Below are positions 34,624 through 53,821 of a stretch of 64,000 bases of DNA, piece by piece (the first letter of the stretch is position 1; every line of letters starts with the position of its first letter). This stretch comes from Stagnihabitans tardus (lineage in GTDB: Bacteria; Pseudomonadota; Alphaproteobacteria; Rhodobacterales; Rhodobacteraceae). Made by a program: the position numbers and the translations under genes. The stretch is taken from positions 62,001 to 126,000 of the forward strand of contig NZ_JAABNR010000008.1 of assembly GCF_009925085.1 (NCBI RefSeq). The letters are read 5' to 3'. The notes beneath the pieces were generated by a model that had not been told where the DNA came from, ran no database searches, and worked only from the letters and a program-made list of their open reading frames with translations.

Positions 34624-34670
34624 TGGAGGCGGGTACCGGAATCGAACCGGTCTACACGGATTTGCAATCC
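34624..34670 (-). repeat. attL: displaced 3' part of the original tRNA-Cys
   Basis: On the minus strand this reads as the anticodon loop, variable region, T-arm and acceptor 3' strand of a tRNA-Cys (GGATTGCAAATCCGTG ... ACCCGCCTCCA) with no matching 5' half beyond 34670. It matches 53748-53794 closely: 16 bp CACGGATTTGCAATCC (34655-34670) and 11 bp TGGAGGCGGGT (34624-34634) are identical. The T-stem is ACCGG/CCGGT here and GCGGG/CCCGC in the intact tRNA. This is the left attachment site. Confidence 0.9.
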
Positions 34671-34743
34671 AGTAGACTTTGCAGGCGCAGCAACGCCCTA
34701 CGCTGAAAAGCGTATCGGGACAAACGGCGACCATTTGGGGAAC

Positions 34744-34757
34744 CTGATACAGGGGGG
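34744..34757 (+). promoter_or_regulatory. Candidate integrase arm site, left (CTGATACAGGGGGG)
   Basis: CTGATACAGGGGGG lies 74 bp inside the left core. Related strings TGATACGGGGG (53693-53703) and CTGATACGGTGG (53704-53715) lie 64-86 bp inside the right core, in the same orientation. Repeats on both phage arms at similar distance from the core resemble integrase arm-type sites (inference). Close by are a TACGCT-GAAA-AGCGTA hairpin (34699-34714) and GGGAACC/GGTTCCC arms (34738-34744, 34756-34762) around the RBS of the next gene. Confidence 0.45.
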
Positions 34758-34762
34758 TTCCC

Positions 34763-35515
34763 GTGGCTAGGGTCATCCAATTGAACGGCCAGAGGCCGGG
34801 CGGGTGGGCCAAGGATCGGTGGGAATGGCTGAAGCGCGTGAGGCGGGATGACCGCTTGGCGCCCATGACCCGCCTGATAGCGCACGCCCTGGGGTTCGGC
34901 TTTGCCAACTGGGATAACGGCGAGTGCCGCCCGGGACATGCCGCCATTGCGGAAGATTGTGGAACTTCCATTCGCACGGTCGAACGGTCCATGGCCGAAC
35001 TTGAGCGCGGTGGGTGGGTGGTTCGGATCGGTCGGGAAGCGCCCGGCCTCTCGGCCCTGATCCGGTTTTCCTTCCCCGAACGCCCGCCAGAAATGGCGGC
35101 CGAACGCCCGCCAGAAATGGCGGCCGAACGCCCGCCAGAAATGGCGGGCGACGAAGATCAACGCCCGCCAAATCTGTCGTCAACGCCCGCCAAATCTGGC
35201 GGGACATATAAGGAAGAACCAAAATTGAACCATAAAACACGCCTGCCCCTGCACGCTACCCGCGTCACTGTTCCGGGGGGTGCGAGGCCCACGCCGCTGC
35301 AAGCCCTGGTTGGCATCAACAGCGAGGCCAGGGCCGATTGGGACGAGTGGCTGAGGTCGCATGGCTTCCCGACCCTGGACAAGATCGGCCAGCATATCCC
35401 CCACGCCGGGGCGGTGTATTTCGATATGCCCTGGCGCTACCCGCCCCGGGCAGACGACGAGGCGTCCACCCGCACCGCTGGCAGGTTCGCTGAGTGGCTG
35501 AGAATTAGGGCCTGA
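34763..35515 (+). CDS. Winged-helix phage protein, probable replication initiator carrying iteron repeats
   Basis: 250 aa, GTG start at 34763 behind AGGGGGG. The N-terminal part (about residues 20-105) is a helix-turn-helix domain of the kind found in phage replication or DnaD/lambda-O-like proteins (GHAAIAEDCGTSIRTVERSMAELERGGWVVRIG). The middle (residues about 105-150) is encoded by tandem DNA repeats giving ERPPEMAA three times, then related sequence. A C-terminal domain (about residues 185-250) is of unknown function. First phage gene after attL. Replication role is inferred from position, HTH and the embedded iterons; it could instead be a regulator. Confidence 0.65.
   Translation: MARVIQLNGQRPGGWAKDRWEWLKRVRRDDRLAPMTRLIAHALGFGFANWDNGECRPGHAAIAEDCGTSIRTVERSMAELERGGWVVRIGREAPGLSALIRFSFPERPPEMAAERPPEMAAERPPEMAGDEDQRPPNLSSTPAKSGGTYKEEPKLNHKTRLPLHATRVTVPGGARPTPLQALVGINSEARADWDEWLRSHGFPTLDKIGQHIPHAGAVYFDMPWRYPPRADDEASTRTAGRFAEWLRIRA
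35077..35203 (+). repeat. Iteron-like tandem repeats, candidate phage replication origin
   Basis: Three exact or near-exact 24-bp tandem copies start at 35077, 35101 and 35125. Each contains the inverted repeat CCGCCA-GAAA-TGGCGG. Two further 22-bp copies start at 35159 and 35181 with AACGCCCGCCAAATCTG. All five share AACGCCCGCCA. The array is within the coding sequence of the HTH protein, as lambda ori iterons are within gene O. Confidence 0.8.
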
Positions 35516-35519
35516 GAAA

Positions 35520-35729
35520 ATGACGGGGGCAGGGATGAACGAAAACGGCGCAAAGCTGGAAGGTGTGAAGCGGATTGCTGACTTCCTCGGGGTGGACGAA
35601 AGCACGGTGCGGCGGTGGATCAAGAACCCGAAAAGGGGGGCGCCGATCCGCAAGTTGGGCGGGCGCTATTTCGCCTGGGAGGCCGATCTTGTGAACTGGC
35701 TTTCGGGGCAGGGCCTCTTGCCCGCCTAG
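35520..35729 (+). CDS. Small helix-turn-helix DNA-binding protein
   Basis: 69 aa. Residues about 14-62 form a helix-turn-helix of the HTH_17/terminase-small-like type (VKRIADFLGVDESTVRRWIKNPKRGAPIRKLGGRYFAWEADLVNWL). It starts four bases after the previous stop; ATG 35535 (M6) is an alternative start. It sits at the head of the morphogenesis module, just before a run of 10-bp repeats (35735-35774), so it could be a packaging or late-transcription DNA-binding factor. A separate P27-type small terminase exists at 41762. Confidence 0.75.
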   Translation: MTGAGMNENGAKLEGVKRIADFLGVDESTVRRWIKNPKRGAPIRKLGGRYFAWEADLVNWLSGQGLLPA

Positions 35730-35734
35730 TGATT

Positions 35735-35774
35735 GCCCGGTTTCGCCCGGTTCCGCCCGATTTTGCGCGGTTTG
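35735..35774 (+). repeat. Four 10-bp direct repeats before the portal gene
   Basis: GCCCGGTTTC, GCCCGGTTCC, GCCCGATTTT and GCGCGGTTTG follow each other without gaps at 35735-35774, about one helical turn apart. They fill the only gap between the small HTH gene and the portal gene. Helically phased repeats here suggest a protein-binding array, either an operator or a packaging (cos/pac) recognition site; CTAGG...CCTAG arms follow at 35780-35796. Confidence 0.6.
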
Positions 35775-35817: not shown

Positions 35818-37020
35818 ATGGAAAAGCAATCCCTCTTCGCCCGCCTCTTCCGCCCCTCGGCCAAGTCTGTGGCCGATCCCTGGGCCGATCTTTTCCAGCT
35901 TTTCGGCGTGGTCCAGACTTCCACCGGCGTGGCGATTTCGGCCGATGCGGCCGCCCGGGTGCCTGCGGTGGGCCATGCAATCCGCCTGATTTCCAACGCG
36001 GCGGCGATCCTGCCCCGGGTGGTCAAGAAGGTGGCTGAAGATGGCACCGAAACCCGCATGGCGGGGCATTGGGCGGAAGCCCTCTTGAACCGCCAAGCCA
36101 ATGACTGGACTTCGGGCTTTGACCTGATCCGGGATTGCATGGTGGACGCCCTGACCGATGACCGGGGCGGCCTGATCTATGCCAACCGGTCATCCTCGGG
36201 CAAGGTGGTGGAGTTGATCCGCTATCGGTCGGGCGTCATGACGGTGGATTATCACCAGAAGACCGGCCAGCCGTTTTACCGGATGGAAAGCGCCCCGGTC
36301 GAGGCGGCCAAGGTGGTGCATCTGCGGCCGATCTTCGGCAAGTCGCCTCTCACCATGTTCCGGGAAGCCATCGGGATTGCGGTTGTCCTGGAGCAACACG
36401 CGGCCGCGCTTTTCAGCAAGGGGGCGCGGCCCTCGGGTGTTTTGTCGTTCCCAAAGGGGATGGGTCAAGACGCGGTGAACAAGGCGCGGGAAGGCTGGAG
36501 GGCGACCCATGAGGGCGCCGACCCCGGGGGGAAAACCGCAATCCTGTATGACGGGGCAGAGTTCAAGCCGCTGGCCTTCACGTCCACCGATGCGCAATTC
36601 ATCGAAAACCGCAACTTCCAGATTTTGGAGGTTGCCCGGGCCTTCGGGGTGCCGCCGTCGATGCTTTACCAACTGGACCGCGCCACCTGGGGCAATACGG
36701 AACAGATGGGCAAGGAGTTTCTGGTGTGGTGCCTGGAACCGTGGCTTCAGGCCCTTGAAGGCGCCTTCACCCGGTGCCTTTTGGGCAAGGGCGATCTGGT
36801 CATCCGGTTTGACCGGGATGACATGACCCGCGCCGATCTGGTCACCCGCGCCACGGCAATTTCCTCTCTGACTTCGGCCCGGGTCATCAACCCCAATGAA
36901 GGCCGGGGATGGCTTGGCATGGCGCCCTATGCGGGCGGGGAAGAGTTTGCCAACCCGCATATCAACCCGGATCGGGACGGCGCCCCGGCCAAGAATGAGG
37001 CGCCGAATGGAACTCTCTGA
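35818..37020 (+). CDS. Phage portal protein (HK97 family)
   Basis: 400 aa. It forms the dodecameric DNA gateway at one capsid vertex. Family features: AAARVPAVGHAIRLISNAAAILPRVV near the N-terminus, HWAEALLNRQANDWTSGFDLIRDCMVDALTDDRGGLIYANR, VHLRPIFGKSPLTMFREAIGIAVVLEQHAAALFSKGARPSGVLSFP, and FGVPPSMLYQLDRATWGNTEQMGKEFLVWCLEPWLQALE, the diagnostic C-terminal core. ATG 35818 follows AAAAGGAGC. The end overlaps the next gene by 14 bases. Confidence 0.95.
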   Translation: MEKQSLFARLFRPSAKSVADPWADLFQLFGVVQTSTGVAISADAAARVPAVGHAIRLISNAAAILPRVVKKVAEDGTETRMAGHWAEALLNRQANDWTSGFDLIRDCMVDALTDDRGGLIYANRSSSGKVVELIRYRSGVMTVDYHQKTGQPFYRMESAPVEAAKVVHLRPIFGKSPLTMFREAIGIAVVLEQHAAALFSKGARPSGVLSFPKGMGQDAVNKAREGWRATHEGADPGGKTAILYDGAEFKPLAFTSTDAQFIENRNFQILEVARAFGVPPSMLYQLDRATWGNTEQMGKEFLVWCLEPWLQALEGAFTRCLLGKGDLVIRFDRDDMTRADLVTRATAISSLTSARVINPNEGRGWLGMAPYAGGEEFANPHINPDRDGAPAKNEAPNGTL

Positions 37021-37408
37021 AATCCTCTCGACTGTGGACGAGCAAAGCGCCGGGCGCTGGTTTGAAATCCTGCACCCGGTCGAGGGCGGGCCGCTGGGGC
37101 TGCGCCTGAAGCTGGCCGGGCCTGACAGTCGGCAACAGGCCGAAGCGCTGGCCATCATGACCGATGAATTGGCCGAAGCTGCGGACGCTGAAGGGCGCGT
37201 GACCGGGCAGGATCGGGAAGCCATCCGGCGCCGGTTCCTGGCGCGGATCGTGCTTGACTGGGAAGCCACGGAAGATGGCAAGCCGGTGCCCTTCAGCTTT
37301 TCGGCCGTTCTGAAGCTGATGGGCGTGGCCTATGTGCGGTCGCAGGTTGACGCTTACGGCGCGGCCCGGGCGCCCTATTTCGTGGGGGCTTATGATGCAG
37401 AGGCTTGA
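37007..37408 (+). CDS. Conserved phage protein between portal and capsid genes
   Basis: 133 aa, function not recognised with certainty. Residues about 60-133 (DREAIRRRFLARIVLDWEATEDGKPVPFSFSAVLKLMGVAYVRSQVDAYGAARA) read like the small tail-assembly or head-module proteins in which a WEGV..DGKPVPFS motif precedes a helical end; I recall that pattern but cannot confirm the family. It overlaps both portal (14 bases) and the protease-capsid gene (17 bases), so translation is coupled to head proteins. Confidence 0.7.
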   Translation: MELSEILSTVDEQSAGRWFEILHPVEGGPLGLRLKLAGPDSRQQAEALAIMTDELAEAADAEGRVTGQDREAIRRRFLARIVLDWEATEDGKPVPFSFSAVLKLMGVAYVRSQVDAYGAARAPYFVGAYDAEA

Positions 37409-38963
37409 GTTCAAGGCGAAGGTCACGGCCGGGCTTGAAGGCCGGATCGAGGGCTTGGCCTCGGTCTTTGGTGCGCTGGATCGGGGCGGCGATGTGGTCC
37501 ACAAGGGCGCCTTCGCCTCGGCCAAGGCGCCGATCCCGATGCTTGACAGCCATCACCCTGACGCCCCGATTGGGGTCTGGGAAGAGGTCACGGAAACGGC
37601 CGATGGGCTGGCCGTGAAAGGGCGCTTGCTGGTGCAAGAGGTGCCCCGGGCGGCCGAAGTGCTGGCCCTGATCGAGGCGGGCGCAATGCGTGGCCTGTCC
37701 ATCGGATACATCGCCCGCAAGGCGGCCCGCCGTGCCAACGGGGTGCGCGATCTTACGGCGGTTGAACTCGTGGAAATCAGTGTGGTGGCGGTGCCGATGT
37801 GCCCCGGCGCCGATATCAGCGCGGTGAAATCCGCAGAAGGGGAAACCATGACCAAGGAAGAACTGGCCAAGATGCTGGCCGAACTCGGCATCACGGCCGA
37901 GCAAAAGGCCTTCGACCCGGCCAAGGCCATGGCCGACGCGGTGGCGGCCGCCGTGGCGCCCGTGGCGGCCAAGCTGGAAGAGGTCGAGACCAAGTTGAAC
38001 CGCCCGGGCGGCATCGGCGGGGCGCCTGCCAAGGAACGCTCGGCCGAGTTCAAGGCCTTCTCGGCATACCTGATCCGGGGGCCTCACCTGGACCAAACCG
38101 AACTGAAGCTTCTGAGCGTGGCCAGCGACCCCAACGGCGGCTATCTGGCATCGCCCGAGTTCTCTTCGGAGGTCTTGCGCGATCTGGTGGACATGTCGCC
38201 CATGCGGTCCATCGCGTCCATCCGGGGCACCAACGCGCCCTCGGTGATCTATCCGACCCGCAAGCCGATGGGCAACGCGACCTGGGATGATGACACCACG
38301 GCCGAACCGGAAACCTCGGTCACGAACATCTTCGGGCAACTGGAAATCATCCCGCGCGGGATTTCCACCTTCGTGGATATCCCCAACACCCTTCTTCAGG
38401 ACGCCCCGGCCGTCGAGGCTGAAGTGCGGGCGGCGCTGGCCGAAGATTTCGCCAAGAAGGAAAGCGTGGCCTTCGTCAACGGCGACGGCATCGCGGCCCC
38501 GGAAGGTCTCATGACCAACGCGGATATCGTGTCGTTCAACAACGGCGCCACCACGTTCACTTCGCCGGATGGCCTGATCAAGTTCCTCTATTCCTTCGCC
38601 CCGTCCTATCGCAATCGGGGCGTCTGGGCGATGAACGGGACGACGCTGGGCATTCTGCGGACCATGAAGGGCACGGATGGGCAAATGATCTGGCAGCGGT
38701 CCCTTGCGGAAGGCCAGCCGGAAACGATCCTGGGCCGCCCCGTGGTCGAAATGATCGACATGCCCGACATCGCGGCCAACGCAACGCCCATCATCTACGG
38801 CGACTTCTCGGGCTATCGCATTCTGGACCGGCTGGCCCTGTCCATGCTGGTGGACCCCTACAGCCAAGCGACCCTGAAGCGCACCCGCTACCATGCCGGG
38901 CGCCGGGTCGGGGGCCGCGTCATTCAGGCGGCCAAGTTCAAGAAACTCAAGATGGCGGTGTAA
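37392..38963 (+). CDS. Fused HK97-type prohead protease and major capsid protein
   Basis: 523 aa, one uninterrupted frame. Residues 1-150 are an HK97-family (U35/S78) prohead protease: H54 in MLDSHHPDAPIGVW and S103 in MRGLSIGY are the catalytic pair, and EISVVAVPMCPGA closes the domain. Residues 153-220 are a helical scaffold (delta) region. Residues about 225-523 are the HK97-fold capsid protein (SVASDPNGGYLASPEFSSEVLRDLVDMSPMRSIA ... ILGRPVVEMIDMPDIAANATPIIYGDFSGY). Start is ATGATG at 37392/37395. A second in-frame start at 37848 (see separate entry) could supply free capsid protein. Confidence 0.93.
   Translation: MMQRLEFKAKVTAGLEGRIEGLASVFGALDRGGDVVHKGAFASAKAPIPMLDSHHPDAPIGVWEEVTETADGLAVKGRLLVQEVPRAAEVLALIEAGAMRGLSIGYIARKAARRANGVRDLTAVELVEISVVAVPMCPGADISAVKSAEGETMTKEELAKMLAELGITAEQKAFDPAKAMADAVAAAVAPVAAKLEEVETKLNRPGGIGGAPAKERSAEFKAFSAYLIRGPHLDQTELKLLSVASDPNGGYLASPEFSSEVLRDLVDMSPMRSIASIRGTNAPSVIYPTRKPMGNATWDDDTTAEPETSVTNIFGQLEIIPRGISTFVDIPNTLLQDAPAVEAEVRAALAEDFAKKESVAFVNGDGIAAPEGLMTNADIVSFNNGATTFTSPDGLIKFLYSFAPSYRNRGVWAMNGTTLGILRTMKGTDGQMIWQRSLAEGQPETILGRPVVEMIDMPDIAANATPIIYGDFSGYRILDRLALSMLVDPYSQATLKRTRYHAGRRVGGRVIQAAKFKKLKMAV
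37835..37850 (+). promoter_or_regulatory. Internal ribosome binding site and ATG for separate capsid product
   Basis: AGAAGGGGA (37835-37843) is followed after four bases by an in-frame ATG (37848-37850), exactly at the protease/scaffold border (residue 153 of the fusion). Translation from here gives 371 aa, a normal HK97-type capsid protein with delta domain. This would let the phage make many capsid subunits and few fusion molecules from one frame. Confidence 0.65.
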
Positions 38964-38964: not shown

Positions 38965-39351
38965 ATGCAGTATCGTGACCAATATTCGCAACAGGCGGTG
39001 CGAACCTCGGTGGTTCCGCAGGCCATCGCGGCCGCCAAGGCGGGAACCGCTGTGGACCTGGCCGGGGCGAAATCCTGCCTGATCCTGGCTTCCACCGGCG
39101 CCTTCGCCGGGGCTGAGGTCATCAGCGTCAAGCTGCAAGAGGCCGACGCCTCGGGCGGGCCGTGGTCGGATGTTCCGGCCGCCTATGTGCAGTCGGACGC
39201 CCCGGCGTCTCTGGCGGCAAGCTTCAGCTACCGCCTGGGCTATCTGGGCGGCAAGCGCTTCGTGCGGCCGATGTTCGTCTGGACCTCCGGCACCTCGGCG
39301 CAGGTTGCCGCCTTGGCCGTGGTCGAGCCGCTCGTTCGCCCCGTGCCCTGA
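38965..39351 (+). CDS. Conserved phage virion protein downstream of the capsid gene
   Basis: 128 aa. Begins MQYRDQYSQQAVRTSVVPQAI and contains VDLAGAKSCLILASTGAFAGAEVISVKLQEADASGGPWSDV, a beta-rich pattern common in proteins that follow the major capsid gene in alphaproteobacterial phages. It may be a head decoration or head-tail protein; no specific role can be assigned. ATG two bases after the capsid stop; stop overlaps the HNH start by one base. Confidence 0.75.
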   Translation: MQYRDQYSQQAVRTSVVPQAIAAAKAGTAVDLAGAKSCLILASTGAFAGAEVISVKLQEADASGGPWSDVPAAYVQSDAPASLAASFSYRLGYLGGKRFVRPMFVWTSGTSAQVAALAVVEPLVRPVP

Positions 39352-39695
39352 TGCCCACGAAAGCCCCGCGCCTGTGCCCTTGCGGAAAGGTGATCCCCTC
39401 GGGGGAGCGCTGCACCTGTGAGCGCAAGGCAGAGACGGCCCGGAAAGCGATCTATGACCGCAACCGGCCTTCTTCTTCGGCGCGGGGCTATACGGGGGCT
39501 TGGGACAAGGCCAAGCGGGCCTTCCTGGCCAAGCACAAGCACTGTGTGCGCTGCGGCAAAGACGCGGACACGGTGGACCATATCAAGCCCCATCGGCAGG
39601 ACCGGGAATTGTTCTGGGATAGGGCCAACTGGCAGGCCCTTTGCGCGTCCTGTCACAACAGCACCAAGCAGCGCGAAGAGCGCAAAGGAGGCTAA
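39351..39695 (+). CDS. HNH endonuclease
   Basis: 114 aa. The HNH core is at about residues 61-107: CVRCGKDADTVDHIKPHRQD (CxxC and the DH pair), DRANWQALCASCHNSTKQ (second CxxC and the His-Asn). An N-terminal CPCG...CTC zinc-knuckle is also present. In HK97-type phages an HNH protein works with the terminase in genome packaging; here the gene is separated from terminase by five genes. Confidence 0.92.
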   Translation: MPTKAPRLCPCGKVIPSGERCTCERKAETARKAIYDRNRPSSSARGYTGAWDKAKRAFLAKHKHCVRCGKDADTVDHIKPHRQDRELFWDRANWQALCASCHNSTKQREERKGG

Positions 39696-39698: not shown

Positions 39699-40196
39699 AT
39701 GGCGGTTTACACGATTGCCGGTTCCAAGTTTGAGGTGGGCATCGCTGGCCCGCTTCAGAACACGGACTATGTGGCGGCGGATTTCACGGGCGCGACCAAG
39801 CCGCTTTCGGCGGTCAATGAAGTGGGTGAACCCGAGACCTTCGGCACTGTCTCCGATCCCTGGGATACGGAAGACTTCACCAACGTGACCTATGCCCGCA
39901 CCCGTGTCTTCAAGACGGTGCGCAAGGGGTCCACGGTGGAACTGACCTGCGGCCTCGACCCGACCGACACGGGCCAAATCTTCATGCGCACGGCCTACGC
40001 GGCCACGCTGAACTATGGCTTCCGCCTGACCCTTGCGGACAAGCCCACGAGCGGCGCCACGCCCAAGAACTCCACCCGCATGTTCATGGGCACGGTCATC
40101 AACGTGGAAGATGACCCCTCGGGCAAGATCGGGAAGGTGAAGTTCACCATCCAAATCAACAGCAACATTGTCAGGACGGACGCAAGCCCGACCTGA
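39699..40196 (+). CDS. Major tail (tube) protein
   Basis: 165 aa. Starts MAVYTIAGSKFEVG and has the all-beta composition of siphovirus tail tube proteins, with the FxxVTYARTRVFKTVRKGSTVELTCG region and GTVINVEDDPSGKIGKVKFTIQINS at the C-terminus. Monomers stack as hexamers to form the tail tube. In most long-tailed phages it follows the connectors and is followed by tail chaperones; here it precedes the connectors. ATG three bases after the HNH stop region (AAAGGAGG). Confidence 0.85.
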   Translation: MAVYTIAGSKFEVGIAGPLQNTDYVAADFTGATKPLSAVNEVGEPETFGTVSDPWDTEDFTNVTYARTRVFKTVRKGSTVELTCGLDPTDTGQIFMRTAYAATLNYGFRLTLADKPTSGATPKNSTRMFMGTVINVEDDPSGKIGKVKFTIQINSNIVRTDASPT

Positions 40197-40308: not shown

Positions 40309-40620
40309 ATGGCAATCGTCACGCTGGCACAAGTCAAAGAGGAATTGGCCTTCACGGCCGACCTGGGCGCGACGGATGACGCCATGTTGACCGCGAAAAT
40401 TGACGCGGCCCAAGATCACGTCGAGCGCCTCTTGGGTTACAAGATCGAAACCCAATACGGCACCGCGCCGGGGCAAGAGCCGATCCCGGCCAGCCTGCGC
40501 CAAGCCGTCATGTCCCTGGCGGCCCACTGGTATGAACAGCGCGGCGCGGTCGGGCGCGAGGCGGAAGCGCCCTACTGGATTGAAGATATCGTTTCGACCT
40601 ATCGCGGGTGGACCTTCTGA
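40309..40620 (+). CDS. Head-tail connector protein (gp6-like)
   Basis: 103 aa. MAIVTLAQVKEELAFTADLGATDDAMLTAKIDAAQDHVERLLGYKI and LRQAVMSLAAHWYEQRGAV match the small helical HK97 gp6-like adaptor that binds under the portal. ATG 40309 gives the canonical N-terminus; TTG 40291 is an upstream in-frame option. Followed by a gp10-like gene after one base. Confidence 0.9.
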   Translation: MAIVTLAQVKEELAFTADLGATDDAMLTAKIDAAQDHVERLLGYKIETQYGTAPGQEPIPASLRQAVMSLAAHWYEQRGAVGREAEAPYWIEDIVSTYRGWTF

Positions 40621-40621: not shown

Positions 40622-41029
40622 ATGGGAGCCAATGGCCTTGCATCCTTCAAAGCCCGACTGTCGGGCATCCCGGCCGCCGTGCGCGAGACGCTGGCCGGTG
40701 ATCTGGTCGAGGCGGCAACGGATGTTGCGGCGGCCGTGGCGCGGATTGCCCCGCGAGACGAGGGCGACTTGGCGGCCTCGGTCGCGGTCACGGGGCCGGG
40801 CCAGCCCACGCCGGAATACAGCCAACCGGGCGGGTCTTTCGTGGTCGGGACCAACGCGGCCGCCGTGACGGTCGGCAACAGCGAAGTGCGCTATCCGCAC
40901 CTGGTCGAATACGGCACGACCAAGGCCCCGGCGCAGCCGTTTTTCTGGCCCGCCGTGAACGTGACGCGGGGGGCCGTCAAAGCCAAGATCAAGGCCGGTA
41001 TGCGCCGGGCAATCAGGGGGGGCAAATGA
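40622..41029 (+). CDS. HK97 gp10-like head-tail/tail-completion protein
   Basis: 135 aa. The family pattern is visible: LVEAATDVAAAVARIAPRDEGDLAASVAV followed by VRYPHLVEYGTTKAPAQPFFWPAVN, the standard HK97_gp10 ending. It joins head and tail during assembly. Overlaps the next gene by four bases (ATGAG). Confidence 0.92.
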   Translation: MGANGLASFKARLSGIPAAVRETLAGDLVEAATDVAAAVARIAPRDEGDLAASVAVTGPGQPTPEYSQPGGSFVVGTNAAAVTVGNSEVRYPHLVEYGTTKAPAQPFFWPAVNVTRGAVKAKIKAGMRRAIRGGK

Positions 41030-43818: not shown

Positions 43819-43820
43819 CC

Positions 43821-46738: not shown

Positions 46739-48479
46739 ACCCTTCACCATCGTGGAAATTGACGTGGGCCGGTGTGCCAACGTCTTCGGAACGGCGCCTT
46801 GCACGGCCGCCCTTGGCGGGGCCGTGGCGGCCAAGTGCTTCAACACCTTTGGCACCTGTGAAGCCACTGTGGCCTTCGTGCCGGGCGTCATGACGCTGCG
46901 GTATACCCTGCCCACGCCTGGGGCGCCTCTGGCCCCGCTGACCTTCCCGGCGCTTGTCTCAGTCTCGGCCGATACCTCAACTGTGAACATCGCCGGGGCT
47001 GATGACAGCATGGGCGCTTTTGGGCGGCGCGGTTCGGTCGAAATCGAATTGCAAGACTTCCTGCACCATGACCGGGGGATTGACCTCTATCAGGCCGAGC
47101 GGGTGACCGGGGCGGCGCAAGCCGATGGCATCGGATACACGCCCGAAAGCCGGGGAACCCATTTCGGCCGGCTGCGGGCGCGGTGGCCCCATTATGCGGG
47201 CCGGGCCTGTCGCGTGATCGAGGGTTATTTGGTGGGGGGCGCCGTGGTCAACACTGTGACCCGGCATTACGTCTTGACCGGGTTTACGGCGCCAGACAGT
47301 TCCGGCCGCGTCAAGCTTGCGGCGGCCGATGTGCTTAACCTTGCGGACAATGACCGGGCGCAATGCCCCAAGCCGGGGGCGGGCGTCCTGGCAGCGGCCA
47401 TAGGCACGGGCGACACGGCCTTGACCTTGGCGCCCTCGGGCATCGGGGCGCAATACCCTGCGGCCGGGCGGGCGGTGATCGGATCGGAGATTGTCGACTA
47501 CACCCGGGCGGGCGATCTGGTGACCCTGACGGCCCGGGCGGTATCGGGGTCCACCCTCTCGACCCACGCGGCGGCCGATACCTTCCAACCGGTCTGGACG
47601 GCGGCCGGGGTGCGGATTGATGACGCCCTGAAGGATTGGCTTGTGAACTTCGCCGGGGTGCCCTCGGCCTTCATACCGGCGGCAGCCTGGGCCGCTGAAG
47701 TCACGCGATGGGCGCCTGATGTGCGCCTCTGGTCGGACGTGTGCAGCCCTACGGGGGTCAACAAGCTTGCGGGCGAGTTGGCGGCCCTTGGGGTTTCGGT
47801 CTGGTGGGATGACGCGGCCCAACTGGTGGGCCTGAAGGTCAACCGGCCGCCTGATGGGGATACGGTCTGGACCCTGACAGAGGGCGACAATCTGCTTTCG
47901 ATCGAGATCATGGACCGAGACGAGGACCGGTTGACCGATCTTCTTTTCCTCACGGTCCAGAAAGACCCGACCAAGAGCGCCACCGATCCGGCCAACTTCC
48001 TGCGGGCCGCCTGGATACAGGACACCAAGGCCAAGCGCCCGGAAGCTTATGGCGACACGAAAACCCGCAAGGTCTTCTGTCGCTGGTTCAACAGGGGTGA
48101 CGACTCGGCCGCCCTGACCTTGGGAACCCGCGTCTTGAAGCGGTTTTCCTCGGCGCCCGCCCGCGTCAAGCTGACGGTGAGCAAGAATGACCGCGCCATT
48201 GGCCTGACTGACGTTCTGTCCCTGACCTCGGCCGGATTGCAGGACAAGACCGGCGCGACCCCGGCCAGCCTTTGGCAGGTCATCAGCCGCAAGGAAACGG
48301 CCGATGCAGTCGAGTTGCTGGCCCAAGCCTACCAATGGGCCGGGCGCTATGGCTTTGCCCTGGTCAATACCGCGCCCGTCTGGGCCTCGGCCTCGGCCGC
48401 TGAAAAGGCCGTGGGGGAATGGGCCTGTGATGCAACCCTGAAAATGCCGGACGGAACCCCGGCTTATGAGGCGATCTGA
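46728..48479 (+). CDS. Tail hub/tip protein with four-cysteine N-terminal motif
   Basis: 583 aa. The N-terminal 60 residues hold C-x8-C-x11-C-x6-C (CANVFGTAPC ... KCFNTFGTC), conserved in tail proteins of many proteobacterial siphophages and reminiscent of the iron-sulfur-binding cysteines of lambda gpL. The rest is beta-rich (VRLWSDVCSPTGVNKLAGELAALGVSVWWDDAAQLVGLKVNRPP is typical of hub domains). It overlaps the previous gene by 11 bases. Likely the central hub below the tube; metal binding is inferred. Confidence 0.8.
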   Translation: MAVEPFTIVEIDVGRCANVFGTAPCTAALGGAVAAKCFNTFGTCEATVAFVPGVMTLRYTLPTPGAPLAPLTFPALVSVSADTSTVNIAGADDSMGAFGRRGSVEIELQDFLHHDRGIDLYQAERVTGAAQADGIGYTPESRGTHFGRLRARWPHYAGRACRVIEGYLVGGAVVNTVTRHYVLTGFTAPDSSGRVKLAAADVLNLADNDRAQCPKPGAGVLAAAIGTGDTALTLAPSGIGAQYPAAGRAVIGSEIVDYTRAGDLVTLTARAVSGSTLSTHAAADTFQPVWTAAGVRIDDALKDWLVNFAGVPSAFIPAAAWAAEVTRWAPDVRLWSDVCSPTGVNKLAGELAALGVSVWWDDAAQLVGLKVNRPPDGDTVWTLTEGDNLLSIEIMDRDEDRLTDLLFLTVQKDPTKSATDPANFLRAAWIQDTKAKRPEAYGDTKTRKVFCRWFNRGDDSAALTLGTRVLKRFSSAPARVKLTVSKNDRAIGLTDVLSLTSAGLQDKTGATPASLWQVISRKETADAVELLAQAYQWAGRYGFALVNTAPVWASASAAEKAVGEWACDATLKMPDGTPAYEAI

Positions 48480-49027
48480 TGACTGATTACAGCGCGATTG
48501 CGGAGACTGAAACCGACCCCGGGGCGCCGTCCAAGTCCAGCCTGTGGAAGCGGTGGGCCAAGAACTGGATTGCCGGTTTTGAAGGGGCAGCGGGCGCCCC
48601 GCGGCTGATGGGCGAGGCCATCGCCACGGCGGCCAACGGCGCCTTGCCGGTGCTGACTGTCACGGCCTCGGACGCCTTCGACCTGGGCGAGGGCATGGCG
48701 CCGGTTGCGGGAACGGCCGTTGCCACCACGGCGGCCGAAGTGGTGGCGCAAACCTACACGGTGGCATTGTTCACCGGTTCGGTTCGGGTGCGGGCCACCA
48801 TCACGGCGGGGGGCGGCGGGGTCGCAACCGCGATCCTCTACAAGAATGGGGTTTCGTTCGGCTCTTCCACGACCTCTTCCCAATCCTATGACGTGCCGGT
48901 TGTGCCGGGCGATGTGCTGCAATGGCGGCACAAGACCAACGGAACCGGAACTTCCACCTTCTCGGGCGCGGTGGCCCGGGCAAGCAACAGCTATTTGCCG
49001 CAATCCGCTTTCCGAAAGGCGGTCTAA
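48479..49027 (+). CDS. Phage tail-tip associated protein of unknown function
   Basis: 182 aa. N-terminal 45 residues are polar and Trp-rich (SLWKRWAKNWIAGFEGAAGAPRLMGEAIATAANG); the remainder is Thr/Val-rich beta structure (VRVRATITAGGGGVATAILYKNGVSFGSSTTSSQSYDVPVVPGDVLQW), like a small collagen-free fibre or receptor-binding head. Last gene before the lysis cassette, so a short tail fibre/tip role is plausible. No family recognised. Confidence 0.7.
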   Translation: MTDYSAIAETETDPGAPSKSSLWKRWAKNWIAGFEGAAGAPRLMGEAIATAANGALPVLTVTASDAFDLGEGMAPVAGTAVATTAAEVVAQTYTVALFTGSVRVRATITAGGGGVATAILYKNGVSFGSSTTSSQSYDVPVVPGDVLQWRHKTNGTGTSTFSGAVARASNSYLPQSAFRKAV

Positions 49028-49030: not shown

Positions 49031-49216
49031 ATGAAAGGGCAGGCTTTGAACAGAGTGACCAATGGAGTGGCGGCGGCGGGGGTGACCCTGCCCGCCTGGG
49101 AAGTGCATCTGCAACACGCCGGGGTGATTGCCGCCTCGGTGGTGCCGATTCTCTCGGCCCTGTGGCTGGCCGTGCAAATCGTGCGGTTCGTCCAAGCCTG
49201 GAGGGCCGCCAAATGA
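49031..49216 (+). CDS. Small membrane protein, putative holin
   Basis: 61 aa. One clear hydrophobic segment at about residues 30-53 (HAGVIAASVVPILSALWLAVQIVRF) with a positively charged C-terminus. It directly precedes, and overlaps by four bases, a GH24 endolysin gene, the usual place of a holin. A single-helix holin or a pinholin would suit a signal-anchor-release endolysin. Holin role is inferred from position and topology. Confidence 0.7.
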   Translation: MKGQALNRVTNGVAAAGVTLPAWEVHLQHAGVIAASVVPILSALWLAVQIVRFVQAWRAAK

Positions 49217-49677
49217 AAAGCCGGTTGGCGATGGCGGCCGGTCTGATGGCGGCCGCCGTGGCGCTGGTGGGTGGGTTCGAGGGGCGGCGCCTCTCGGCCT
49301 ATCTCGACGGCGGCGGGGTGCCCACGATCTGCTTTGGCGCAACCAAGGGGGTGCGCCTGGGCGACACGGCCACGGCGGGCGAGTGTGACAGTCGGTTGCG
49401 GGCCGATCTGGTCGAACATGAGGCGGCCTTGCGCGCCTGCCTGAAGGCGCCCGATGCGATCCCGGATCAATCCTATCTGGCGCTGGTGTCTTGGGCCTTC
49501 AACGTGGGCACCGGCGCGGCCTGCAAGTCAACGGCCGTGCGCCTGGTCAACGCGGGTGATCTGCGGGCCGCCTGCAATCAACTGCCCCGGTGGGTGCGAG
49601 ACAACGGCCGGGTGATCCCCGGCCTTGTCAACCGGCGCCAATCCGAACAGGCGCTGTGTCTGGAGGGCCTGCGATGA
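49213..49677 (+). CDS. Endolysin, glycoside hydrolase 24 lysozyme, likely SAR type
   Basis: 154 aa. The T4-lysozyme-like catalytic Glu is in GGFEGRRLSAY, followed by YLDGGGVPTICFGAT with the Asp and Thr of the E-D-T triad. LVSWAFNVGTGAACKSTAVRLVNAGDLRAACNQLPRWVRDNGRVIPGLVNRRQSEQALCL completes the fold. The first 20 residues are a weakly hydrophobic Ala/Gly-rich helix (LAMAAGLMAAAVALVGG), as in signal-anchor-release endolysins, which are held in the membrane until the holin depolarises it. Confidence 0.93.
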   Translation: MKSRLAMAAGLMAAAVALVGGFEGRRLSAYLDGGGVPTICFGATKGVRLGDTATAGECDSRLRADLVEHEAALRACLKAPDAIPDQSYLALVSWAFNVGTGAACKSTAVRLVNAGDLRAACNQLPRWVRDNGRVIPGLVNRRQSEQALCLEGLR

Positions 49678-49937
49678 TCCGGCTTTACATCGTGGCGGGC
49701 CTTTGCCTGGTGATCTGGGCTTTGATGGCGCGGGCGGAATTGACGGCCGCCCGGGCCGATCTGGCGCGGGTCGAGGCCAAGGCGGCGGGGCTGGAAGAGG
49801 CGGCCCGGTTTCACGCGGTCGAGGCCCGGCGCCGGGAAGCGGCGGCCGCCCTGGACATGGAACTTCAACAGGGAGCCGGGGCCGATGCGCCGTTATCTGA
49901 TTATCTGCGCCTTGGCGCTGGCAGGGTGTGGCCCTGA
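49674..49937 (+). CDS. Rz-like inner-membrane spanin
   Basis: 87 aa. N-terminal membrane anchor (IRLYIVAGLCLVIWALMA) followed by a charged coiled coil (ELTAARADLARVEAKAAGLEEAARFHAVEARRREAAAALD). This is the i-spanin layout. It overlaps the endolysin stop by four bases, and an Rz1-type lipoprotein gene is nested in its end in another frame. Together they bridge and fuse the two membranes at lysis. Confidence 0.85.
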   Translation: MIRLYIVAGLCLVIWALMARAELTAARADLARVEAKAAGLEEAARFHAVEARRREAAAALDMELQQGAGADAPLSDYLRLGAGRVWP

Positions 49938-50100
49938 CCCGGCCACGATCCCGCCCGACCTGCTGACGCCCTGCCCGGGATGGGTGGGGCCTCGGCCCGA
50001 GACCGAAGGCCAGTTGATCCGGGCGGCGCTGGCAGAGAAAGGGGGGAGGCAATGCGCAAACGGCAAGCTTCAGGCCATAGCCACGCTTTCGGGCGGCTGA
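49885..50100 (+). CDS. Rz1-like outer-membrane spanin lipoprotein, nested
   Basis: 71 aa. Lipoprotein signal RRYLIICALALAGC with lipobox ALAGC (Cys 15), then a Pro-rich mature segment (GPDPATIPPDLLTPCPGWVGP) as in Rz1. The start lies 53 bases inside the Rz-like gene in a different frame, the embedded arrangement known from lambda. Longer than lambda Rz1. Confidence 0.85.
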   Translation: MRRYLIICALALAGCGPDPATIPPDLLTPCPGWVGPRPETEGQLIRAALAEKGGRQCANGKLQAIATLSGG

Positions 50101-50417
50101 AGGTCCAGCTTTGCGAGGCCCTGCGGCGCCACCTGAATGAAGGCGGGCGGCCCCGGGTGCCGGTGGCGGGCGTGATGCTGTGGCAGGCCTTCGCCACGCT
50201 GTGCGAGGGCAGGACATGGCGCGGGGGGATACCCGATCCGATCCGGTGGGGGGACGGCCTGGCGCGGCTGGCGCTGGCCCGGATCGTGCTGCACCCGCAC
50301 CACGTCGAGGCCCTGGAGGCAATGGACGCGGAATGGCTGGCATGGGCCGCCGTGCCGCCATCGGAGCGCGTGGCGGGGCCTCTGACCGGCGCGGCCTTTG
50401 ATGCGATGTTCAGCTAG
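50052..50417 (+). CDS. Hypothetical phage protein after the lysis cassette
   Basis: 121 aa. Starts at ATG 50052 behind GGGGGGAGG, inside the end of the Rz1-like gene. Basic N-terminus (MRKRQASGHSHAFGRLKVQLCEALRRHL), then a helical region with several Trp (RTWRGGIPDPIRWGDGLARLALARIVLHPHHVEALEAMDAEWLAW). No family recognised. Its 3' end overlaps the convergent Arc-type gene by eight bases. Confidence 0.65.
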   Translation: MRKRQASGHSHAFGRLKVQLCEALRRHLNEGGRPRVPVAGVMLWQAFATLCEGRTWRGGIPDPIRWGDGLARLALARIVLHPHHVEALEAMDAEWLAWAAVPPSERVAGPLTGAAFDAMFS

Positions 50418-50760
50418 TCCGGGGGGTGATCGGCAGGAACACCATGGGGCCATGGTGCGGAACGTCTTTCACCATGGCCGTTGACCCAAGAGCGGCAATC
50501 TTGGCGTTCACCTCGGCTTTGCGCGCCTCGGTTTCCTCGGGGGTCGAGGCGGAAAGGATATAGGCCAGAAGGTCGCGGGCTGCGGTTTCGGATAGTGGGT
50601 CTGGTTCCGGGTAGGTGGCTTCTAGCGTGGCCACAATTTCCGCGTTCATGGAGCGCCCGGCCGCCTCGGCTGCGGCCCGTATGCGGTCCCGCATGCCTGG
50701 AGGCATGCGCACAATGAAGCGTTCCATGAGTTCTGACGGGTATGGGTCACGATCCTGCAT
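50410..50760 (-). CDS. Arc family ribbon-helix-helix protein (leftward)
   Basis: 116 aa, the only minus-strand gene in the prophage. Residues about 11-52 are an Arc/Mnt-type ribbon-helix-helix (ERFIVRMPPGMRDRIRAAAEAAGRSMNAEIVATLEATYP): beta strand FIVRMP, then two helices with SMNAEIV. The longer C-terminal region (about residues 55-116) may mediate oligomer formation. It is divergent from a second Arc-type gene, with a perfect inverted repeat between them, and is a candidate lysogeny repressor. Confidence 0.88.
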   Translation of the reverse strand: MQDRDPYPSELMERFIVRMPPGMRDRIRAAAEAAGRSMNAEIVATLEATYPEPDPLSETAARDLLAYILSASTPEETEARKAEVNAKIAALGSTAMVKDVPHHGPMVFLPITPRTS

Positions 50761-50865: not shown

Positions 50866-50870
50866 TTTTA

Positions 50871-51074
50871 ATGAAGAAGTTTCCTTCGGACAGCGCCAAG
50901 AAGTTCAACGTTCGCATGTCGGATGAACTGCACTCGCAACTGAAGGCGGCCGCAGCGATCAACCGCCGTTCCCTGAACTCGGAAATCCTGGTTCGCCTTG
51001 GCTGCGAGGGCAAAGCGAAGATGGCTCCCGTTTCCGGCGATCATGCGGCGCAACTGAGGCGGGAAGGCGCATGA
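50871..51074 (+). CDS. Arc family ribbon-helix-helix protein (rightward)
   Basis: 67 aa, the size of Arc or Mnt. KKFNVRMSDELHSQLKAAAAINRRSLNSEILVRL is a clear ribbon-helix-helix: DNA-contacting strand KFNVRM and helix B with SLNSEIL. Its RBS lies next to the inverted repeat, so it is likely autoregulated and opposes or cooperates with the leftward Arc-type protein. It heads the early rightward operon up to the integrase. Confidence 0.9.
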   Translation: MKKFPSDSAKKFNVRMSDELHSQLKAAAAINRRSLNSEILVRLGCEGKAKMAPVSGDHAAQLRREGA

Positions 51075-51507: not shown

Positions 51508-51836
51508 CCCGGAAACCGAAGATGAAGGAAACGGCCGAAGATCAAGCCGTGACCGGCAAGGCCCTGGAGAACAGCGGCGCCCGCCTCTTGGAGATTGTCG
51601 AGGGGCTTGAGGAACTGGCCGACCGAATGGACGTGCTGAAGGAAGACCGCAAGAAGCGCTTGGCGGCCGCCAAGTCGGATGGCTACGACCCGAAAGCCAT
51701 TCAGCGGGTCATCCGGCAACGGGCCATGACCACGGAAGCGAAGAGCAAGGAGCGCGATCTTTTCGCGGTGGTCGGGGTCTATGAAGCCGCGATCTGGGAA
51801 GCGGAGCGCGGCCCGGAAATGGATGGGATGAAATGA
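51504..51836 (+). CDS. GapR-like (DUF2312) DNA-binding protein
   Basis: 110 aa. SGARLLEIVEGLEELADRMDVLKEDRKKRLAAAKSDGYDPKAIQRVIRQRAMT has the DUF2312/GapR pattern: coiled N-terminal helix, then AKSDGYDPKAIQRVIRQR. Caulobacter GapR binds overtwisted DNA and supports replication. A phage-borne copy might help phage replication or mimic the host factor. The ERD...VYEAAI end is also conserved. Confidence 0.8.
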   Translation: MTRKPKMKETAEDQAVTGKALENSGARLLEIVEGLEELADRMDVLKEDRKKRLAAAKSDGYDPKAIQRVIRQRAMTTEAKSKERDLFAVVGVYEAAIWEAERGPEMDGMK

Positions 51837-52519
51837 CGCCCCGGGCGCTGATCGGCTGCGAAACCTCGGGCCAGATGCGGCGGGCCTTTGCCGCCCGGGG
51901 GTGGGATGTTTGGTCCTGCGATCTGTTGCCCGCTGATGATGGGTCAAACCGGCATATCCGGGGCGACGTGCGCGACCTCTTGGGGGAAGGGTGGGATTTG
52001 CTGGCCGTCCTGCACCCGCCTTGCACCCGCCTTTGTCGGGCGGGGCAGCGGTGGCTTTACGGCCCGGGCAAGACGCGGCCCAAGGCCCTGCCCAAGGGTC
52101 GGACCTGGGAAAGCATGGTGGCGGAGTTTGAAGAGGCTTGCGCCCTTTTCTCGGCCTGTCTTCATGCCCCGATCCCGCGCCGGATGATCGAAAATCCCGT
52201 GATGCACTGTCACGCGGTCGAGGCCATCCAGCCGCCAAAGCCGCAGGTTGTTCAACCGTGGTGGTTTGGTGATCCGGCCTTTAAAGCCACCGGCCTCTAT
52301 CTGGCCGGGCTTCCGCCCTTGGTCGCGTCCAGTCCATTGACCCCGCCCGCCCATGGGTCGGAAGAGTGGCGCCGGTGGTCTGCGGTCCACCGGGCGGCGC
52401 CTGGGCCGGATCGGTGGAAAATCCGCAGCGCGACCTTTCCGGGGCTGGCGCGGGCCTGTGCCGATCAATGGGGGCCGCTGGTCGAGGCGGCCACGGGGTG
52501 GACCCATGCGGCGGCCTGA
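51833..52519 (+). CDS. Methyltransferase-like phage protein with HPPCT motif
   Basis: 228 aa. The N-terminus ALIGCETSGQMRRAFAARGWDVWSCDLLP is arranged like the SAM-binding motif I/II of cytosine-C5 methyltransferases, and LLAVLHPPCTRLCRAGQRW has a PPC motif as at their catalytic Cys. A target recognition domain and motifs IX-X are not evident, and the protein is short. I recall this family as common in phages under the label of DNA methyltransferase or hypothetical. Candidate for DNA modification or protection from restriction. Confidence 0.6.
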   Translation: MTPRALIGCETSGQMRRAFAARGWDVWSCDLLPADDGSNRHIRGDVRDLLGEGWDLLAVLHPPCTRLCRAGQRWLYGPGKTRPKALPKGRTWESMVAEFEEACALFSACLHAPIPRRMIENPVMHCHAVEAIQPPKPQVVQPWWFGDPAFKATGLYLAGLPPLVASSPLTPPAHGSEEWRRWSAVHRAAPGPDRWKIRSATFPGLARACADQWGPLVEAATGWTHAAA

Positions 52520-52706
52520 TCCGATCTTTGCCGCAGAGGCCACGGCCGCCCGGCTTTGCGACATGACGGCCGAAGAGTTTCGGCGCCTGGTCGAGGCGGG
52601 GCACCTTCCGCCCCCTCGGGTGATTGGCAAGCTGCGGCGCTACGACGTGGAAGAGCTGCGGCGCGTGATCCGGGGCGAGGCTGCGGCAGAGGCCTTGACA
52701 TGGTGA
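52506..52706 (+). CDS. Excisionase-like helix-turn-helix protein
   Basis: 66 aa. ARLCDMTAEEFRRLVEAGHLPPPRVIGKLRRYDVEELRRVIRG is a MerR/excisionase-type winged helix (AlpA/Xis-like). The start lies inside the methyltransferase-like gene, and its end overlaps the integrase start by seven bases. Position right before int suggests recombination directionality factor, but it could also be a regulator. Confidence 0.75.
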   Translation: MRRPDPIFAAEATAARLCDMTAEEFRRLVEAGHLPPPRVIGKLRRYDVEELRRVIRGEAAAEALTW

Positions 52707-53668
52707 CGGGGGGGAAGCGCTTTGTCTGGTCACCCGATGGCAAGCGGTGGTATTTCCGGCGCCTCGGCAAGCTGGTCAGGATCAAGGCCGAACCCGGGAC
52801 AGAAGAGTTTGACCGGGAATACTGGGAAATCATGCGGGGCAGGGTCGCGCCCCGGGGCACGTCCTGGGCGGAACTGATTGCCAGCTATCGGGCTTCCGAT
52901 CGGTGGCTTGGCCTGAAGCCTCGGACCCGGCGCGACTACGAAACCGTCATGGAATACATCACGGAAAAGAACGGCCGCAGGGATGCGACCCGGACGCGGC
53001 GGGCCGATGTAATCGCGGCCATGGATGCCAACCGGCATCGGACCCGGTTTGCAAACTATCTGCCCTCGGTCATGTCGCAAATCTTTGAACATGCCCAAGA
53101 CCTCGGCCTTATGGCCACCAATCCGGCCAAAGGGGTTCGGCGGCAAAAGGTGCCAGAGGATCGGCGCCGGGCGCATATCCCCTGGCCGGATGAGGCGGTG
53201 GACAAGTTCCGGGCAGAGGCCCGCCCGGCCGCCCGGCTGATCTTTGAGGTTGGGGTGGGCAGCGTCCAGCGGCCTAGCGATTGGCTGGCAATCCCCTGGG
53301 GCGCCTATGACGGGGACAGCCTGAGCCTTGTGCAGGGTAAGACGGGGGTCAAGCTGGTGATCCCCTGCACGGCCGCCCTGCGGGCCGCCCTAGACGCGGC
53401 GCGGCCGCCTGGTGTTGATCCTGCCCGGCCGATGACTTACAACAGCATGGCTTACCTGATGCTTAGGGAGCGGCGGCGCCTCGGCCTCGGCGCCTATGAC
53501 CTTCACGCCCTGCGGTATCGGGGGGTGATCGAACTGACCTGGGCGGGCTGCACTGATGACGAGATAGAGGCCTACAGCGGTCACGAGACAATCGAGATGA
53601 TCCGCAAATATGCGGGGGAAGCACGGCAGGAAATGCGGGCGCGGCAGGCCCGGGAAAAGCGGCCGTGA
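52700..53668 (+). CDS. Tyrosine recombinase (phage integrase)
   Basis: 322 aa. Full catalytic set: R191 (SVQRPSDWLAIPW), K214 (GKTG), H269-x-x-R272 (DLHALRYRG), H295 (YSGHETIEM) and nucleophile Y304 (IRKYAGEARQ). Core-binding SAM-like domain at about residues 52-140, N-terminal arm-binding part before that. ATG 52700 is chosen because it begins MVTGGKRF right after the excisionase-like overlap. It would recombine attP with the tRNA-Cys anticodon-arm region 110 bp downstream. Confidence 0.96.
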   Translation: MVTGGKRFVWSPDGKRWYFRRLGKLVRIKAEPGTEEFDREYWEIMRGRVAPRGTSWAELIASYRASDRWLGLKPRTRRDYETVMEYITEKNGRRDATRTRRADVIAAMDANRHRTRFANYLPSVMSQIFEHAQDLGLMATNPAKGVRRQKVPEDRRRAHIPWPDEAVDKFRAEARPAARLIFEVGVGSVQRPSDWLAIPWGAYDGDSLSLVQGKTGVKLVIPCTAALRAALDAARPPGVDPARPMTYNSMAYLMLRERRRLGLGAYDLHALRYRGVIELTWAGCTDDEIEAYSGHETIEMIRKYAGEARQEMRARQAREKRP

Positions 53669-53692
53669 ACGAACACGGCACAAAGCGGCATT

Positions 53693-53715
53693 TGATACGG
53701 GGGCTGATACGGTGG
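53693..53715 (+). promoter_or_regulatory. Candidate integrase arm sites, right (two TGATAC repeats)
   Basis: TGATACGGGGG (53693-53703) and CTGATACGGTGG (53704-53715) are adjacent direct repeats between the integrase stop and attR. A similar copy is near the left end (34744-34757). In attP all three would point the same way on both sides of the core. Confidence 0.45.
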
Positions 53716-53747
53716 AACGGGCAAGGGCCAGAAAGGCCTTGTTTACT

Positions 53748-53821
53748 TGGAGGCGGGTGCGGGAATCGAACCCGCCTTCACGGATTTGCAATCCGCTGCG
53801 TAACCTCTCCGCCAACCCGCC
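53748..53821 (-). tRNA. tRNA-Cys (anticodon GCA), reconstituted by the prophage
   Basis: 74 nt with encoded CCA. Acceptor GGCGGGT/ACCCGCC, D stem GCG/CGC, anticodon stem GCGGA/TCCGT with loop TTGCAAA (GCA, Cys), T-stem GCGGG/CCCGC with TTCGATT loop. The 3' half up to the 16-bp core (53779-53794) comes from the phage; the former chromosomal 3' half with a different T-stem is at 34624-34670. The gene should still give functional tRNA. Confidence 0.96.

Follow-up and report, generated by a model that had tools for sequence, protein, structure and literature searches.

Phage satellites are generally seen as elements that appropriate heads or tails. Accounts of capsid-forming phage-inducible chromosomal islands (cf-PICIs) list genes for capsid, protease, portal, connectors, an HNH protein, the small and large terminase subunits (TerS and TerL), an integrase and an excisionase/AlpA-like protein (PMC10690885, PMC10803314, PMC11389934); the mean size is given as 14 kb, and the main hosts named there include no Alphaproteobacteria (PMC10803314). 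The phage-inducible chromosomal island-like elements (PLEs) of Vibrio cholerae form chimeric tails in which a satellite tape measure protein (TMP) and chaperone are joined to helper tail proteins; the proposal is that their tube comes from ICP1, while TMP, tail assembly chaperone and, in some, a hub are self-encoded (PMC12987554). Putative satellites with tape measures have been reported (PMC10448857), and the legend of Extended Data Fig. 10b in PMC12987554 mentions cf-PICIs with putative tmp genes; TMP-bearing satellites are therefore not new as such. The Streptomyces satellites MulchRoom and MiniFlayer are small and have their own capsid, and MiniFlayer has a tail fibre gene (PMC10690885). 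Here we analyse a prophage element at positions 34655-53794 of a 64,000-nucleotide stretch of the Stagnihabitans tardus genome (contig NZ_JAABNR010000008.1), termed the window and numbered 1-64,000; L and G numbers denote relative loci and the source contigs or genomes of the analysis, respectively. With a probability of about 0.58, we read the element as a temperate long-tailed phage, intact at 19.1 kb and residing in tRNA-Cys, that is nested in a satellite-like family that shares a permuted head-to-TMP block, its own clade having gained a hub, a receptor-binding protein and lysis genes. No paper on this family was found in the open-licence PMC literature.

The element measures 19,124 bp from copy to copy of a flanking 49-bp direct repeat, the two copies of which are 90% identical and share an exact 16-bp att core at 34655 and 53779. 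The integration target is a tRNA-Cys gene (53748-53821), with the right repeat copy inside it. An uninterrupted site is present in L204, from the same genus, in which the left-flank genes, one tRNA-Cys and the right-flank genes are contiguous; L203 has the same tRNA as L204, with a match limited to the right flank. The L204 tRNA has the same T-arm as the left copy in the window; this copy is therefore the host half, displaced by integration, while the 3' half now in the tRNA was supplied by the phage. Comparison of 53746-53821 with 34622-34670 shows that the host T-arm ACCGG/CCGGT was swapped by integration for the phage GCGGG/CCCGC on both sides of the stem. A possible trace of excision or circularisation, belonging to a relative and not to the window copy, is provided by viral contig G295 (behind L023; 19,371 bp; TerL 85% identical to that of the window), which spans attP: integrase (12722-13699), a single att core (13814), rep and portal (14987) follow one another with host DNA absent between them. 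G295 starts and stops close to the gap between tube and gp6, with no overlap of its ends, and is thus a permuted unit that is nearly complete and derives from an excised circle or from packaged DNA. At 31733 and 61087, on either side of the element and 29.4 kb apart, the host DNA also carries an exact repeat of 61 bp that has an inner palindrome (GGGGAGCGTGCTCCCC).

Genes were named by Pfam and PHROGs profile searches of the window proteins. Head, connectors, tail shaft, tip proteins, lysis genes, regulators and integrase all lie in one mobile unit, of which the att sites and the structural, lysis and integration genes are as follows.

34622-34670 (16-bp core 34655-34670): left att copy, the displaced 3' half of the host tRNA-Cys (repeat search, L204 comparison)
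35818-37020, plus strand: portal protein (PF04860, 4e-78)
37007-37408, plus strand: tail assembly chaperone (phrog_313, 1e-11)
37392-38963, plus strand: fused head protease and major capsid protein (PF04586, PF05065; Rhodobacter capsulatus gene transfer agent (RcGTA) capsid, 9e-40)
39348-39695, plus strand: HNH endonuclease (PF01844)
39699-40196, plus strand: major tail tube protein (phrog_158, 4e-8)
40309-40620, plus strand: gp6-like head-tail adaptor (phrog_40, 2e-20)
40622-41029, plus strand: HK97 gp10-like neck protein (PF04883, phrog_5)
41026-41442, plus strand: tail terminator, gp17/DUF3168 (PF11367, phrog_176)
41439-41765, plus strand: head closure or head-tail adaptor protein (PF05521)
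41762-42232, plus strand: TerS (PF05119)
42196-43818, plus strand: TerL (PF20441, PF03354; phrog_9, 3e-126)
43809-45923, plus strand: TMP, 704 residues, for which a tail of roughly 100 nm would be expected (phrog_1538, 2.5e-4)
45920-46738, plus strand: distal tail ring candidate dtp272, 272 aa (phrog_11633, function unnamed; homologue of P12026 gp17)
46728-48479, plus strand: tail hub/adhesin candidate hub583, 583 aa (phrog_11439 'tail fiber protein', 3e-81; homologue of P12026 gp18)
48479-49027, plus strand: receptor-binding protein candidate, 182 aa (conserved anchor, variable head)
49031-49216, plus strand: holin candidate (position and hydrophobic stretch; no family match)
49213-49677, plus strand: phage lysozyme, endolysin (PF00959, 4e-39)
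49674-49937, plus strand: Rz-like spanin (weak match to phrog_5151, 0.048)
49885-50100, plus strand: Rz1-like spanin overlapping the Rz frame (phrog_456, 9e-7)
50052-50417, plus strand: second tail chaperone candidate (phrog_3817, 0.0097; L065 copy of the family, 1.8e-6, 'tail chaperonin')
52703-53668, plus strand: tyrosine integrase (PF00589; phrog_1, 4e-24)
53746-53794: right att copy, inside the reconstituted tRNA-Cys (53748-53821, minus strand)

A first-pass annotation of the same DNA had described a compact (about 19.1 kb), seemingly complete long-tailed prophage with the permuted order portal-capsid-HNH-tube-gp6-gp10-DUF3168-adaptor-TerS-TerL-TMP. Both descriptions stand, the former on length, att repeats, empty site and the Pfam/PHROGs gene set, and the latter with the addition that the order is conserved in relatives. 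That annotation was also correct in seeing no large fibre gene, the tip being filled by hub583 and the 182-aa protein. Its statement that a tail-chaperone pair is lacking overlooked the two chaperone-like genes at 37007-37408 and 50052-50417; these lie apart and form no frameshift pair.

The tip proteins find their counterparts in Marinomonas phage P12026, in which gp17, gp18 and gp19 follow the tape measure. In the same order, dtp272, hub583 and the 182-aa protein match these three proteins with identities of 25%, 31% and 30% and E values of 2e-11, 3e-66 and 1e-3, respectively; hub583 gave no match against PDB sequences. Across eight sequences, mean identity is 57% over the first 45 residues of the 182-aa protein, which are conserved, and 23% over the variable remainder, a pattern common in receptor-binding proteins, and we consider the protein a candidate for this role. 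Its structural model (predicted local distance difference test score, pLDDT, 55.8) returned weak matches to C1q/TNF-like folds, the best at E 2.6e-3 and none at 0.001; such a fold is a lead, not evidence.

Relatives were collected by TerL search, retaining the best 80 of 251 relatives among viral contigs and the best 80 of 198 among species genomes, two sets that partly overlap; genes were detected with profiles built from the window genes on six-frame, stop-to-stop open reading frames (ORFs). Hosts include Paracoccaceae, Roseobacteraceae, Rhizobiales (among them Xanthobacteraceae, Aurantimonadaceae, Rhizobiaceae and Bartonellaceae) and Sphingobium. In 106 loci (93 distinct TerL stretches), TMP accompanies portal and TerL in one run in which the portal precedes TerL on the same strand, and the whole order is kept for the genes detected in 83 of them (70 of the 93 stretches); the other 23 deviate mainly in HNH versus tube or in neighbouring connectors, partly because ORFs run stop to stop. 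Among 152 TerL loci, the hub583 family is found in 12, many of the others lying on cut contigs, and the lysozyme family in 11, the window being counted in each. Too cut to class were 59 loci; the other 93 comprise 16 with hub583 or dtp272, 64 tip-less and 13 without tube and TMP. L093, placed in the 16 by its distal-tail gene, lacks a hub and is treated below as tip-less. The family spans three grades: complete (hosts of this form include Tabrizicola and Cypionkella), tip-less (head and shaft) and head-only. The earlier proposal of a distinct lineage is upheld, yet not as one of minimal phages of Rhodobacterales, as the family reaches Rhizobiales and Sphingobium and, among the loci that could be classed, appears mostly tip-less. 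Beside the main set, a 14,541-bp family contig (L043/L114) binned in a genome labelled Cytophagaceae is probably misbinned, and in Limimaricola hongkongensis (L122, contig 19,042 bp, and L062) the block is permuted on a small separate contig, perhaps an extrachromosomal form; the L062 contig gave no match to the window integrase.

End repeats were searched for in 78 loci, yielding a bounded set of 29 elements (the window and 28 relatives). For the other loci, repeats were absent or unconvincing, the contig ended too early, or the locus was set aside (among them L110, with a 15-bp repeat, 11.9 kb and no portal or capsid detected; L111 and L138, each with 14 bp; and L162); L136, L156 and L174 were analysed with less sure ends. 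Bounded sizes are 18.7-19.1 kb for complete elements (n=3, including the window), 16.3-18.8 kb for tip-less ones (n=17) and 15.5-19.0 kb for those first classed as head-only (n=9). Similar size despite differing content suggests a shared packaging limit, although loci of ~21.6 kb cap the sizes that could be observed. Four of the nine carry a TMP-like gene (a 1336-aa tape measure in L121; a TMP-labelled ORF in L134, L143 and L171), and the head-only class was narrowed accordingly, to L136, L140, L154, L157, L168 and L169. Among 59 ORFs of head-only elements, one unplaced match to 'central tail fiber J' was seen, absent from ten rescanned. PADLOC assigned three families among 106 ORFs of ten elements; outside that scan, L136:11770-14237 (head-only, Ancylobacter) carries by eye kinase-like and helicase-like ORFs after TerL, possibly defence cargo.

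In the tip-less layout, head, connectors, tube, TMP and sometimes a distal-tail protein (phrog_1302 in L107, L123, L128 and L163; minor-tail phrog_14 in L147) are followed by a chaperone-like gene, regulators and integrase. The N-terminal ~60 aa of the window TMP are common to these relatives, and the family of the 50052-50417 gene lies soon after their TMP. Window-gene profiles run against six-frame ORFs detected neither the hub583 nor the lysozyme family in any of the 17 bounded tip-less elements, and 133 otherwise unlabelled ORFs of at least 60 aa from these elements matched 24 Pfam families, with no lysis family among them. A PHROG scan of tip-less ORFs included tail-tube, distal-tail and minor-tail families among the 25 of 83 families listed. 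Many of these members seem to be without tail tip and lysis genes and would thus probably borrow them from bigger viruses. Across eight pairs, the ratio of nonsynonymous to synonymous substitution rates (dN/dS) was 0.13-0.31 for the tube (one value saturated) and 0.11-0.36 for the TMP, values that are rough because dS is high and near saturation; judged by these ratios, the tails of tip-less elements appear to be under purifying selection, not decaying. L069 (18.2 kb, tip-less) has a 127-bp end repeat, unique among 37 whole contigs tested. After the chaperone-like gene, L137:13918-14889, L144:13715-15106 and L147:14173-15321 encode low-GC, cysteine-rich, zinc-finger-like proteins with no phage tail match, and a similar stretch occurs in L093.

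The tip-less relatives would make the head and the shaft of the tail themselves and attach to it the tip of a helper, the docking point possibly being the TMP C-terminus together with a distal-tail ring matching that of a co-resident helper. Thirteen of the 17 tip-less hosts were searched for helpers (L167, L177, L158 and L153 were left out), and seven of these have a phrog_1302 distal-tail gene with a PF13550 hub no more than ~4 kb away, the main hub of gene transfer agent (GTA) length not being counted. We term a distal-tail gene near a hub a prophage region, a putative label that does not imply completeness. The comparison set held nine regions from seven genomes, with L225 lacking a hub nearby. 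The distal-tail protein was closest to the same-genome region in all three tip-less elements compared: L107 (from Pararhodobacter aggregans D1-19, in which the prophage region L217 shares a contig with the element; 59.1%; others at most 35.3%), L123 (56.5%; next 26.0%) and L163 (38.9%; next 28.1%). The last 100 TMP residues were closest to the same-genome region in four of seven (L107, L123, L163 and L144), and the first 250 gave no significant match to it. Binomial probabilities are 0.010 for four of seven and 0.003 for three of three, assuming seven equal candidates and with elements shared between the tests. Head proteins lacked the same-genome pattern, the capsid being mostly best on L218 and TerL on L219 for any host. 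The likeness of distal-tail protein and TMP end within a genome is as expected if the helper's tip docks there. In L093, the distal-tail protein and the short TMP end resemble those of P12026.

The remaining features of the element concern replication, regulation and DNA modification, along with one conserved protein.

34763-35515, plus strand: O-like replication initiation protein (phrog_270, E 2e-10)
35077-35201, plus strand: direct repeats of 22 nt within the initiator gene, in five copies that are 73-100% alike (repeat search)
35520-35729, plus strand: excisionase-like small helix-turn-helix (HTH) protein (phrog_66, 2e-7; family in 110 loci)
38965-39351, plus strand: family-conserved protein with no functional name (family in 111 loci)
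50410-50760, minus strand: Arc-like regulator (phrog_3178, 2e-15)
50871-51074, plus strand: divergent Arc-like regulator (phrog_3178, 2e-9)
51833-52519, plus strand: DNA methyltransferase family protein (phrog_757, 2e-53)
52506-52706, plus strand: excisionase/AlpA-like protein (phrog_66, 6e-4; we take the name AlpA as our own label, beyond the phrog_66 match)

In the lambda O gene, repeats inside the initiator gene act as origin, and the 22-nt repeats are possibly the replication origin here.

How the complete and tip-less grades are related was addressed with three gene trees. In the TerL tree, from which three rows on contigs ending before the hub were dropped, nine hub-positive rows form one clade (Shimodaira-Hasegawa-like approximate likelihood ratio test, SH-aLRT, 99) that is nested among tip-less rows, with the forks supported at 100, 100 and 91. 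In the portal tree, hub-bearing rows form one clade (94) nested in a group made up of 23 tip-less rows, 8 complete rows and 1 head-only row. Two of the three trees favour a single gain of the tip/lysis block, and the direction of evolution was probably from satellite to phage. We tentatively propose, at somewhat less than even odds, that a docking family came first and that one clade captured a hub of the P12026 type, together with a receptor-binding protein and lysis genes, as a single block, thereby becoming independent; this clade would need no helper for tip and lysis and would probably be a self-sufficient phage. The reverse course, in which the complete form is ancestral and tip and lysis genes were lost repeatedly to give tip-less and head-only members, is possible but less likely: losing is easier than gaining, and both the tube tree and the TerL root allow it, but nesting of the hub-bearing clade within tip-less rows in the TerL and portal trees would require several losses against one gain, and hub583 occurs in no other branch among the loci analysed. 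Alternatively, the window element may still be a satellite, with its own particle and lysis proteins but needing a helper for activation or replication. Its position among satellite-like elements in the TerL and portal trees, the excisionase/AlpA-like gene adjoining the integrase, and the single O-like initiator, with no match to primase, helicase or polymerase among the window proteins in family scans, would fit such dependence. Lambda-type phages, however, also manage with one or two initiators and otherwise use host enzymes, and the host genome (G000) has a single PF13550 hub, of GTA-type length (noted at G000:C1:78246-78719), and no PF05065 capsid match besides the element's own, and hence no obvious resident helper; we regard this alternative as unlikely.

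That the element is what deletion has left of an ordinary phage of 35-45 kb is scarcely credible, although it is small for a siphovirus and a tblastn search with TerL against phage records found distant phages, at most 34% among the 40 matches listed (whole-element megablast against phages gave no match). The search of TerL against viral databases and the synteny comparison that the first-pass annotation had suggested instead revealed the permuted order across the family, in many genera, and no close relative of 35-45 kb was found among 29 bounded elements of 15.5-19.1 kb, the loci being ~21.6 kb long and thus unable to show elements above ~21 kb. Four longer viral contigs were checked and held no longer element: three (26, 37 and 56 kb) have two portals each and therefore more than one element, and in the 42-kb contig an integrase at 24.2 kb leaves an element of ~18 kb. 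The attP-spanning relative G295 likewise speaks against a remnant. The two-portal contigs are G303 (26.5 kb), G332 (36.6 kb) and G333 (56.1 kb); in G303 both portals are on the same strand at a distance of 17.8 kb, which suggests two elements in tandem. A further reading, which we hold improbable, is that the tip-less relatives are not mobile satellites but elements in decay or domesticated in the manner of a GTA or tailocin. Consistent with it are the absence of recognised hub or lysis genes and a window capsid closest in the PDB to RcGTA, but bounded elements keep their integrases and are flanked at similar spacing by end repeats, most of which overlap tRNA genes, and the purifying selection on their tails and the end repeat of L069 argue in the same direction.

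Several points weigh against the intact-phage reading and the history proposed for its clade. Neither particles nor plaques nor excision were observed for this copy, and the hub583 structure prediction is of low confidence (pLDDT 50.4). Support for the outgroup root in the TerL analysis is weak (69), and the tube tree splits complete from tip-less rows (99) without nesting, placing them on two sides of one branch. The TMP-end match to the same-genome region is second-ranked in L132, fails in L118 and is not significant in L145, and a 200-aa TMP window gives only three of seven (L123 also fails). Two unplaced 'tail fiber' matches appeared among the listed families of the tip-less PHROG scan, and the gene caller overlooked several ORFs of 280-510 aa in tip-less elements, which may include an unrecognised hub. 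Those read by eye look like zinc-finger (L137, L144 and L147), replication or unnamed types, with an HTH protein in L166 and no recognisable kind in L153 and L158; four of them searched against phage records gave no tail match.

That one alphaproteobacterial family should span head-only, head-plus-shaft and complete forms at similar genome size opens the boundary between satellite and phage to study within one lineage, and suggests how a dependent element and an independent virus may interconvert. Its shaft-forming members predict a precise docking point, at the TMP C-terminus and distal-tail ring, on co-resident prophages.

Compared with described systems, the window element resembles cf-PICIs in its small size and in having its own capsid, protease, portal, connectors, TerS, TerL, HNH protein, integrase and excisionase/AlpA-like gene, and its six head-only relatives broadly fit the published gene list, a comparison made at the level of gene lists. 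The tails of cf-PICIs come from the helper, whereas the window element has its own tube, tail assembly chaperone, TMP and tip genes, and even the tip-less relatives carry a tail shaft. The definition of cf-PICIs includes a lack of lysis genes, whereas the window element has a lysozyme. In contrast to PLEs, the tip-less relatives have their own tube, terminator and TMP, and the hub is the missing part. MulchRoom and MiniFlayer differ in having virulent helpers, and 'tape measure' does not occur in the main text of PMC10690885. Phage P12026 shares three homologous tip proteins in the same order after the TMP, and Oceanospirillum phage GJ44 shares homologues of the first two (dtp272 and hub583), but these phages are larger (31.8 and 33.8 kb, respectively) and have the conventional order of head, connectors, tube, TMP and tip. 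Unlike a gene transfer agent, the element is mobile, with att sites, an integrase and an empty site, and is not a resident cluster. Like temperate long-tailed phages, it unites portal, capsid, terminase, tube, TMP, tip, lysis and integrase genes in one mobile unit, and the reading we favour is that of a small but complete phage within a satellite-like family.

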